Part shown: positions 1 to 7,228 of the stretch, piece by piece
How the letters are laid out: the number at the start of each line of letters is the position of its first letter
Position numbering within the stretch: the first letter of the stretch is position 1
DNA from: Chloroflexota bacterium
GTDB lineage: Bacteria > Chloroflexota > Dormibacteria > Dormibacterales > Dormibacteraceae
NCBI GenBank assembly: GCA_005880315.1
Contig: VBHB01000169.1
Coordinates: forward strand, 1-32,442
Length of the DNA stretch: 32,442 nt
Reading direction: 5' to 3'
Notes under the pieces: model-generated
Database searches by the model: none
Seen by the model: only the letters and a program-made list of their open reading frames with translations
What the model was told of the DNA's origin: nothing
Position numbers and translations under genes: made by a program

Positions 1-566
1 AAACGGACGAGAACTCGGCCTGGCGACACAAGGACCTCGAGCAGCGCTACGGCGGAGGGGTGGAGGGTGATCCTTACGAAGCCGAAGCCAAAAAGCGCGG
101 CCTCACCTATGTGTCGCTGGACGGCGAGGTCGGCATCATCGGCAACGGCGCCGGCCTGTGCATGAGCACTCTCGACCTCGTCCAGCGCGCCGGCGGGCGG
201 GCGGCCAACTTCTGCGACATCGGCGGCGGCGCCAAGGCCGAGGTGGTCGAGAACGCGCTCGCTGTGATCCTCATGAACCCCAAGGTCAAGGGCGTGCTCA
301 TCAACGTGTTCGGTGGCATCACGCGCGGTGACGAGGTGGCCAAGGGCATCGTCACCGCCCGCGACCGCCTGCAGATGAAGCTGCCCCTGGTGGTCCGGCT
401 GAGCGGCACACGCGAGGAGGAAGGCCGCGCCATCCTCCACCAGAACGGGATCGAGCCGGGGGCGAACGCGTGGGAGGCCGCGCAGAAGATCGTGGCTTTG
501 ACCAGAGAGCTGGACACCCCTCCGGCGCTTCGCGCCACCTCCCCCCAAGGCGGGGAGGCCAGATGA
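1..566 (+). CDS. sucC: Succinate-CoA ligase (ADP-forming) subunit beta, 3' part
   Basis: This is the C-terminal part of the beta subunit of succinyl-CoA synthetase, which with SucD interconverts succinyl-CoA and succinate with nucleotide phosphorylation in the TCA cycle. The gene enters from the left edge; the readable frame starts at base 3 ([18 protein letters not shown]). The ligase-CoA domain is clear: [12 protein letters not shown], then [21 protein letters not shown] and [14 protein letters not shown]. Family members normally end just after the helix matching [11 protein letters not shown]; here about 17 extra residues ([17 protein letters not shown]) follow, encoded by a double-hairpin repeat. 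The stop TGA overlaps the sucD start as ATGA. Identification is firm; the 5' end lies outside the window. Confidence 0.96.
515..562 (+). repeat. Double-hairpin repeat, copy 1, in the sucC 3' end
   Basis: Two adjacent hairpins are visible. The first is GGCGC-TTC-GCGCC at 524-536; the second has arms CCTCCCC and GGGGAGG around a 7-nt loop within 537-562. The 26-nt second block matches 6900-6925 at every position except inside the loop, and both blocks follow a 3-nt-loop hairpin and a CCGGC stretch. It encodes the extra SucC tail, and its GGGGAGG arm is the Shine-Dalgarno of sucD. The outer boundaries are estimates. Confidence 0.72.
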
Positions 567-2323: not shown

Positions 2324-3186
2324 CTCCCGGAGATAGTCTCGATTACGACCGGGTAGACGCGCTCGGTGTTCTGCCGAGGGTTCGCCGGATCGATCAGGTC
2401 GTGAGGCAGATGCTCGGACGCGGGAAATTCGAAAGTGCCTGGTTGAGCACCATGAGCTCGCCATAGATCGACCAGCTGGTATGTAAAACGGTTGTCGAGT
2501 CGGGGCTCGGCCGCATTGGTGATGACGGCGATCGAGCCGGCCTTCGGCGCCGAGGTGCGGGCGGTCTTGAACACACCACCTCCGGCTTCGAACAGCGCGG
2601 CATATGCCCGCGTCGCGAAGCGAGGGTAGCCGTGCGCCGGACCGATGTTGTCCTTCAGCGCGCGGTCCCACCAGATGTAGAAGTTGGGCAGCACGTTCGC
2701 GAGACGTGCCAGGGAGGCCAGACCCCAGCGGGGGATGGGGCGCAGTCCAAACATCGGCGCGATCAACACCGCCCGCTCCACCATCTCGCTCGACTGGGCG
2801 AGATGGGCGGTGAGCACCCCGCCCAGCGACAGCCCAGCCACGGTGAGCCGCTCACCGAGACCGGCTCCCGACTCGCCCGCCCGATTCGCGACCGCGATCA
2901 GGTGCTCTGAGCGCAGCTCGGCGATCGAGGTCGTCAGGCGATCCGAGTAGCCGTGCCGCGGATACCGAGGGATGAGCACGTTCCAGCCCAGCTCGTAGAA
3001 CTGTTTCCCCAGGGCATCGAACTGCTGAGGGCAGTTGGTGAACCCGTGCAGCAAGACGAGCGAGCGCTCGGTTCGGTGCCCATGGGTGTACAGACGCGTG
3101 CGGCAACTGGGATTGACGTTGGGGCCGTCCAGCGCTTTCAAGCTCTCCGCGATCTCGATTCCCGCGTGGTAGGGATCGTCGCTCAT
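2320..3186 (-). CDS. Alpha/beta hydrolase (carboxylesterase or lipase-like)
   Basis: A 288-aa alpha/beta-hydrolase fold protein. LVLLHGFTNCPQQF at residues 43-56 is the HG oxyanion region, GLSLGG at 118-123 carries the nucleophile Ser120, and HLPHDLID near 259-266 holds the probable catalytic His262; Asp231 in AAEPRLDN is a candidate acid. There is no signal peptide, so it is probably cytoplasmic. The fold and the short lid resemble monoacylglycerol lipase or carboxylesterase families; the substrate cannot be read from sequence. It is divergent from the acyl-CoA dehydrogenase at 3213, with 26 bases between the two starts, and converges on the GNAT gene with a CTAA overlap. Confidence 0.88.
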   Translation of the reverse strand: MSDDPYHAGIEIAESLKALDGPNVNPSCRTRLYTHGHRTERSLVLLHGFTNCPQQFDALGKQFYELGWNVLIPRYPRHGYSDRLTTSIAELRSEHLIAVANRAGESGAGLGERLTVAGLSLGGVLTAHLAQSSEMVERAVLIAPMFGLRPIPRWGLASLARLANVLPNFYIWWDRALKDNIGPAHGYPRFATRAYAALFEAGGGVFKTARTSAPKAGSIAVITNAAEPRLDNRFTYQLVDLWRAHGAQPGTFEFPASEHLPHDLIDPANPRQNTERVYPVVIETISGS

Positions 3187-6040: not shown

Positions 6041-7228
6041 GTGAATCTGGACCTCCCTCCTCAGCACGCCGGCTTTCGCGATTCCGTACGAGAGATTGCG
6101 CAGGGCGTGGCCCTGCCTCTGGCGGCTGAGGTCGACCGCGATCACAGGTTCCCCGAGGAAGCTGTCAAGGCGGCGGCCGAGGCGGGGCTGATGGGCGTTC
6201 TCATCCCGCGCGAGTACGGTGGTGCCGGACTCGACGCCCTCGCTTTCATGCTGTGCATCGACGAGCTGGCCCGCGCATGCGCCTCGACCTCGGTCATCGT
6301 CGACGTGCATACCAGCGTCGGCAGCGAGCCGATCCTCCTCTTCGGCTCGGATGAACAGAAGAAACGGTGGCTGCCTCGCATGGCTTCGGGCGAGCTGCTC
6401 GGGGCATTTGCGCTGACCGAGCCGGCGGCGGGGTCCGACGCGGCGTCGCTGCAGACCAGCGCGCGTCGCAATGGCGACGGCTACGTCCTCAACGGCACCA
6501 AGGTCTTCATCACCAACATCGGACACGCCGGCCTCTACATCGTTTTCGCGCGAACGGGTCCTGGGGAGAGGGCGGCCGGGGTGAGCGCCTTCATCGTGCC
6601 CGCGGACTCGCCGGGCGTGAAGGTCGGCCAGGTGTTCAAGAAGATGGGCCTCAACGGGTCGCCGACCGGCGAGCTCGTCCTCGAGGATGTGGCGGTGCCG
6701 ACGGCGAACCGGCTCGGTGGGGAGGGCGAGGGCTTCAGGGTCGCCATGCGCGCGCTCGATTCGGGCCGCATCGGCATCTCGGGCCAGGCCCTGGGGATCG
6801 GCCAGGCGGCGGTCGACGAGGCCACGGCGCTGATGAAACGACGAGCGAAAGAGCAGGTCGCATCGCCCCACCCGGCCGACTCGCTACGCGAGTGGGCCGA
6901 CCTCCCCACATGGTGGGGAGGCCAGGGCGAGGAGTTCTGGCTGGCCGACATGAGCACTCGCACCGAATCCGCCCGCATGCTCGCGTACCACGCAGCGTGG
7001 CTGTGCAGCGCCGGGCGCCCCTTCACTCGCGAAGCCTCGATGGCAAAACTCCACTGCACCGACACCACCATGCAGGTCGCCCTCGATGCGCTACAGCTGG
7101 CCGGCGAGGAGGGCGCGTTGACCGGGAGTCCTTTCGAGCGCCATGTGCGAGACGCCAAGGCGCTTCAGATCTATGAGGGCTCGAACCAGGTCCAACGAGT
7201 CGTCATTGCAAGAGACATCCTTCGATAA
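6041..7228 (+). CDS. Acyl-CoA dehydrogenase (second), with repeat-derived insertion
   Basis: A 395-aa acyl-CoA dehydrogenase: MNLDLPPQHAGFRDSVREIAQ opens the helical domain, FALTEPAAGSDAASLQT marks the flavin/substrate middle domain and IYEGSNQVQRVVIARDIL ends it, with catalytic Glu379 predicted. The usual C-terminal segment RRxQFGxPIxxFQxIQFxLADM is absent: after LMKRR come about 32 residues including VASPHPADSLREWADLPTWWGG, then EEFWLADM. That block is encoded by a double-hairpin repeat (6866-6925). GTG 6041 is preferred over ATG 6005 because the probable -10 lies between them. The altered segment helps bind FAD across the dimer interface in relatives, so activity or oligomer contacts may differ. 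Confidence 0.92.
   Translation: MNLDLPPQHAGFRDSVREIAQGVALPLAAEVDRDHRFPEEAVKAAAEAGLMGVLIPREYGGAGLDALAFMLCIDELARACASTSVIVDVHTSVGSEPILLFGSDEQKKRWLPRMASGELLGAFALTEPAAGSDAASLQTSARRNGDGYVLNGTKVFITNIGHAGLYIVFARTGPGERAAGVSAFIVPADSPGVKVGQVFKKMGLNGSPTGELVLEDVAVPTANRLGGEGEGFRVAMRALDSGRIGISGQALGIGQAAVDEATALMKRRAKEQVASPHPADSLREWADLPTWWGGQGEEFWLADMSTRTESARMLAYHAAWLCSAGRPFTREASMAKLHCTDTTMQVALDALQLAGEEGALTGSPFERHVRDAKALQIYEGSNQVQRVVIARDILR
6866..6925 (+). repeat. Double-hairpin repeat, copy 2, inside an acyl-CoA dehydrogenase gene
   Basis: Hairpin 1 is ACTCGC-TAC-GCGAGT at 6879-6893. Hairpin 2 has arms CCTCCCC and GGGGAGG within 6900-6925, a 26-nt block identical to 537-562 outside the 7-nt loop. The copy keeps the reading frame and adds residues around 276-295 of the enzyme. 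Outer limits are approximate. The resemblance to in-frame palindromic elements known from other bacteria (such as those of Rickettsia) is in behaviour, not in sequence. Confidence 0.72.

Follow-up and report, generated by a model that had tools for sequence, protein, structure and literature searches.

A candidate family of short palindromic elements in Dormibacterota, with a copy in frame in an acyl-CoA dehydrogenase gene

In-frame palindromic elements are known mainly as a curiosity of Rickettsia, with a few REP examples besides. Rhizobial and alphaproteobacterial genomes carry GC-rich intergenic repeats made of two palindromes, a variable hairpin and then a CTCCCC...GGGGAG hairpin. The two-hairpin element described here may share this architecture. 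REPs show an intergenic bias together with in-frame intragenic copies, and their CGTC class has no dedicated transposase (PMC3733652). Intragenic REPs are rare, and REPs at the same site have been described in Xanthomonas recB (PMC3733652).

The present element was noticed in a stretch of 32,442 nucleotides (the window) from the genome of an uncultured soil bacterium of the Dormibacterota (G000), where one copy of about 61 nt (6866-6926, forward strand) lies in an acyl-CoA dehydrogenase (ACAD) gene. An earlier note on this DNA had likened the palindrome to coding palindromic elements of other bacteria, and the likeness held against those compiled in PMC3733652. As with the Rickettsia palindromic elements (RPEs) and CGTC-tagged REPs, the element is short, occurs in many copies and sits in some cases in frame in functional genes for varied proteins (ACAD, PheA, a UPF0047-polyprenyl synthetase protein, ribosomal proteins L15 and L29, and others), and the CGTC class is likewise without a known dedicated transposase (PMC3733652). 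It is set apart from RPEs, by description, in having two unlike hairpins, one with a covarying stem, and in belonging to another phylum. The CGTC tag was not enriched at either end over 77 copies, whose ends are CCCC and GGAGG-YGAR, and only 4 of the 77 had a GTAG in the 25 nt before the element, against 3.8 expected. With the GTAG REPs and REPINs that accompany RAYT (TnpA-REP), the element shares dispersed hairpins (89 copies), an intergenic bias (71/86), a placement mostly in co-directional or convergent gaps, tandem groups and rare intragenic copies (PMC3733652); in contrast to them, it has no GTAG end and no Y1 transposase in any element-rich genome, and its two hairpins do not represent one REP and its inverted copy. 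Like it, MITEs and the ERIC/RU-1, RU-2 and RU-3 repeats (PMC2759123) are small, with open frames and in-frame fusions to genes, but the Dormibacterota element is shorter and shows at best a weak target duplication and no terminal inverted repeats of the 15-30 bp MITE type, since its ends, CCCCACC and GTGGGGAGG, form no long one and inner hairpins are found instead. The mitochondrial coding palindromes of Nematomorpha likewise lie within protein-coding genes, but they are long perfect inverted repeats and form no dispersed family of common sequence (PMC6649704). Rfam gave no match at the gathering score in the window and, in six loci searched at E 0.1, none that fell on an element copy, and no description of the element in Dormibacterota was found in open-licence papers. 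The element works like REPs and RPEs, yet it lacks their tags and no RAYT partner was found in the element-rich genomes, and we place it in neither family.

Element copies in the window

The earlier note had taken 6866-6925 for the second copy of a double hairpin that also lies near the start of the window, and the fold bore this out: the region forms two adjacent hairpins as DNA at -23.7 kcal/mol (z = -6.7), an energy equalled by 0 of 200 shuffles. The coordinates of both copies are given in Table 1. The shared 26-nt block (6900-6925 and 537-562), said to be identical outside the loop, differs at three bases in and beside the loop (ACCTCCCC-ACATGGT-GGGGAGGCCAG against ACCTCCCC-CCAAGGC-GGGGAGGCCAG), and the hairpin with a 3-nt loop that was said to precede it is present at both copies.

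Table 1. Features of the two element copies and their host genes in the window
Feature	Position	Strand	Basis
Element copy forming the final 16 codons of sucC	517..563	+	Covariance model, 46.5 bits, E 8e-7 (whole genome)
Hairpin 1 of the sucC copy, GGCGC-TTC-GCGCC	524..536	+	Fold
Hairpin 2 of the sucC copy, CCTCCCC ... GGGGAGG	538..558	+	Fold
Acyl-CoA dehydrogenase gene with element	6041..7228	+	Acyl-CoA_dh_N and _M before the element, Acyl-CoA_dh_1 after it; bounds from the codon-score gene calls; structure-known homologues
Entire in-frame insert of 69 nt = 23 codons (VASPHPADSLREWADLPTWWGGQ), as compared with orthologues that lack it	6857..6925	+	DNA and protein alignment; G001, G002, G003, G005 empty, G004 occupied
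Element core, 61 nt	6866..6926	+	Covariance model R1, 82.0 bits, E 7.8e-15 (whole genome)
Hairpin 1, sequence-variable stem, CGC-TAC-GCG tip	6873..6899	+	Fold; base covariation across 74 distinct copies
Hairpin 2, conserved stem CCTCCCCAC / GTGGGGAGG, variable 3-nt loop ATG	6901..6921	+	Fold; 99.2% of cells paired

Alignment with uninserted orthologues, in which the site is empty, confirmed that the ACAD insertion is in frame, and its length agrees with the 16-24 residues that had been anticipated relative to the closest homologues. The CAG at its 3' end (6923-6925) is also found at 6854-6856, and the insertion may alternatively be taken as one of 66 nt with a 3-nt repeat. Among 19 related dehydrogenases, 17 were without the segment, one (L017, from G004) carried it and one (L032) had an unrelated insert at the same place; the latter is 12 residues long (NSKGDVDVLDRL) and has no palindrome. 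The claim that the element replaces the conserved FGxPIxxFQ segment proved wrong, as the uninserted orthologues are already without that segment and read roughly R-x-(H/R)-(E/D)-QGDDF, whereas more distant dehydrogenases and solved structures have FGxPIxxFQ at that place. Judged from these alignments, the element is an addition to a loop natively short in the subfamily, and nothing was replaced. The subfamily itself (window 6041-7228 and orthologues L016-L034) natively lacks the loop segment RxxFGxPIxxFQ, which is conserved elsewhere.

The earlier note had named as the case that would speak for a native segment a homologue with these amino acids and no palindrome, and none was seen among these proteins; in the sole segment-bearing orthologue, that of G004, the palindrome is present and one of its base pairs is compensated. 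Between G000 and G004, the ACAD copies were identical at 58 of 61 sites; a loop base and a compensated change from A-T to G-C made up the differences, which alter two residues, and the rest of the gene differed at 20.6% of sites (79% identical). The 58/61 identity would fit either constraint or a recent parallel gain or conversion. A protein model, which the note had proposed, was made, with low confidence (AlphaFold, mean pLDDT 53 from 19 similar sequences), and in this model the insert lies approximately between helices 245-274 and 295-323 of the C-terminal domain. The insert would lengthen the loop between these two helices and is probably near-neutral for activity.

The double hairpin of the sucC copy (524-558) taken alone was weakly better than shuffles (z = -1.9), and the covariance model placed it in the same family. 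Its GGGGAGG lies 4 nt upstream of the sucD ATG (563), so the element at the end of sucC could supply the ribosome-binding site of sucD (window 552-565); G001 has a different element at the same position. This putative site is held in a hairpin, which ribosomes finishing sucC would open. Differing element sequences were found at the sucC/sucD junction in G000, G001, G003 and G004 (the last with a gap of Ns), and the junction of G005 was empty.

The element family and its genomic placement

Many copies genome-wide had been expected from the two in the window, and a covariance model (R1) built on 12 copies indeed found 89 in the 3.25-Mb genome, dispersed and in both orientations. The pattern CCTCCCCN{3,12}GGGGAGG gave 85 matches in the genome against 1 for a reversed-pattern control. 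The element follows the formula CCCCACC-(hairpin 1, sequence-variable)-A-CCTCCCCAC-NNN-GTGGGGAGG-YGAR, and copies aligned in the same orientation read CCCCACCCGG-(stem)-CGCTNCGCG-(stem)-CCGACCTCCCCAC-NNN-GTGGGGAGG-YGAR. Its ends are sharp: the flanks were at background beyond about 8 nt on the left, where the end is a weak ATC-N motif (ATC at -4 to -2), and beyond 4 nt on the right, where the end is YGAR.

Among 74 distinct copies, hairpin 2 was near-constant and almost always paired (Table 1), and hairpin 1 showed two-sided changes at 12 of 12 pairs, with 142 two-sided against 8 one-sided cells. Over the whole structure, 16 of 21 pairs changed on both sides. The two-sided cells numbered 161, whereas shuffles gave 41.8 and slid controls no more than 29. 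The 74-copy alignment was fitted to the structure, and the same covariation was seen in the first 12 copies, whose alignment used no model. One-sided G-U states were very rare in the covarying stem of hairpin 1, and this scarcity suggests that the pairing matters in DNA or that both arms are rewritten together. Local tandem arrays of 2-4 copies, spaced about 65-145 nt with flanks included, were observed at L004, L084, L077, L096 and L002.

Genes were called with our own simple codon-score script, so that the placement counts are approximate. Beside the 71 intergenic copies, 7 of the 86 overlapped gene ends and 8 lay inside called genes, in loci that are 89% coding; with at most 15 copies in or overlapping genes (binomial P ~6e-53), the element is strongly depleted from genes. 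The intergenic copies with both neighbours called were mostly located between co-directional or convergent genes (59/65), and many were within about 15 nt of a stop codon. Intragenic copies occurred in both orientations relative to the host gene; those that persist are in frame and lie in loops, interdomain linkers or the ends of proteins. Hosts of in-frame copies supported by Pfam were PheA, with the element between the PDT and ACT domains, the UPF0047-polyprenyl synthetase protein, with the element in the linker of the two domains, ribosomal proteins L15 and L29, in their C-terminal tails, and NadA, at an N-terminus that may be a start-site error. A membrane protein of L063 was a further in-frame host.

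Presence and absence among relatives

A tree of three concatenated proteins grouped G000 with G005 (100), G002 with G004 (96) and G001 with G003 (91). Within the genus, the ACAD element was present only in G000 and G004, which conflicts with the first two of these groups, so that the element must have either arrived twice at the same nucleotide or been lost precisely on two occasions; a single ancestral ACAD insertion was not adopted because of this conflict. The PheA linker carried the element in one orientation in G000 and G004 and a different one, running the other way, in G002, and was empty in G001, G003 and G005. Likewise, the L063 membrane protein had the element in one orientation in G000 and G004 and in the opposite one in G001, and was empty in G005. 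As judged from presence and absence between species, these opposite orientations show that elements entered the tolerant linkers of PheA and the membrane protein independently, and precise losses of the element are likely. The L15 tail carried the element in G000, G001 and G004 and a variant in G003, and was without it in G005; the element in the UPF0047-polyprenyl linker was common to G000 and G005.

Within a single family, copy number spanned 0-117, with 20-117 copies per genome in the congeners and a patchy 0-72 in the family. The covariance model gave none or one weak match in other families of the class, and in a 300-genome sample of the phylum matches occurred only in the same family, in a search that scored 18 candidates per genome, so that low counts elsewhere in the phylum could be missed.

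Origin of the element and the search for a mover

The Y1/RAYT transposase (Y1_Tnp, PF01797) was absent from G000 and from all element-rich relatives in a search that detected its controls, although the assemblies are drafts (92% complete for G000, 71-90% for the congeners), so a missing transposase gene is not proof of absence. PF01797 matches above the cut-off occurred only in G016, a genome with 0 elements, and a RAYT/Y1 transposase was rejected as the mover, being absent where elements abound. A target-site duplication test over 71 copies gave a weak 3-nt excess (7 against 2.0 expected), with CAG...CAG in the ACAD gene, and the ACAD copy, searched against plasmids, returned chance-level matches only. 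A hairpin subfamily with an A-rich flank and an AAACC-type loop was observed a short distance 5' of multicopy DUF222 genes (L010, L100, L101 at 3134-3184, L103, and also L152 in G004). That DUF222/HNH-type proteins are for this reason the mobilising enzymes is highly doubtful: G006 has 1 DUF222 gene and 72 elements, G008 has 5 and 0, and most DUF222 loci of the relatives have no hairpin. DUF222 proteins were rejected as the mover, the association being real for one subfamily but without a relation to copy number.

The copies could also be a structured RNA, acting as a terminator, as an attenuator or to stabilise 3' ends and dispersed through ordinary duplication, with the dehydrogenase copy accidental. 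The bias to co-directional or convergent gaps and the closeness of many copies to stop codons agree with this, as do REPs, which are situated downstream of genes and plausibly transcribed (PMC3733652). We consider it unlikely, since hairpin 2 is followed by no T-run, no Rfam match was found, copies stand in both orientations relative to the host gene, and the scarcity of G-U intermediates in the covarying stem points to DNA rather than RNA pairing. A terminator was rejected, as no terminator-like site was called at either window copy; an RNA role of such a kind may be a secondary function. Equally, palindromes could arise or be rewritten locally at each site by template-switching or self-primed synthesis, with no common mobile element. 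Such rewriting would explain the two-sided changes in hairpin 1 without one-sided intermediates, and near-identical tandem copies occur at L002, L004 and L084. It nevertheless appears rather improbable as the origin, because empty sites exist and because hairpin 2 and the CCCCACC and YGAR ends are near-constant among unrelated sites, for which a common source is needed; it could instead homogenise hairpin 1 after insertion. That the segment belongs natively to the dehydrogenase subfamily and serves a function there, its DNA being palindromic by chance, agrees with its presence in the independently assembled G004, but this is almost certainly not the case, given that every other orthologue of the subfamily is without it and that the same DNA recurs about 90 times in unrelated contexts.

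The in-frame ACAD copy and the related copies that recur in shared loops and linkers of further proteins from sister species point to a new family of the rare type, known from Rickettsia, in which palindromes become protein. On the sequence comparisons, we regard it as probable that these are short, non-autonomous, REP/RPE-like mobile palindromes, new as a family and found in one Dormibacterota family. Such an element would move, or be lost, as a folded single strand, its hairpins forming in lagging-strand or otherwise exposed single-stranded DNA, and an enzyme acting in trans would work on the folded form. Precise loss could proceed through an enzyme or through replication slippage between 3-nt repeats, such as the CAG...CAG of the ACAD gene. 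Insertions in genes would mostly be purged, and those that keep the frame open, have a length divisible by three and lie in tolerant loops would survive as extra residues. We suggest only tentatively, as one possible account, that a family without a Y1/RAYT partner is moved and precisely excised as folded DNA by an enzyme or the replication machinery, has its stem rewritten two-sidedly, and is a recurrent source of linker and tail peptides for core proteins (L15, L29, PheA and the acyl-CoA dehydrogenase) across the genus.

An unrelated soil lineage now offers empty sites, single linkers entered by insertions of opposite orientation, and strong covariation on both sides of the stem, which makes two old questions testable, namely what moves REP/RPE-like hairpins without RAYT and how often short selfish DNA turns into protein. 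Tail and linker residues in protein models from Dormibacterota may be repeat-derived and call for caution.

UPF0047 (YjbQ-like) and polyprenyl synthetase form one fused protein (L062:1068-2486) across the sampled members of this Dormibacterota family. The element was rejected as the cause of the fusion, as it lies only in the linker and relatives without the element are also fused. In G004, a cobalamin riboswitch (L243:4502-4630) was found about 260 nt from two element copies. At L056 and L105, a forward element lies at the gene end, and its own TGA (GGTGGGGAGGTGA) can stop the protein, giving a tail that ends in VGR.
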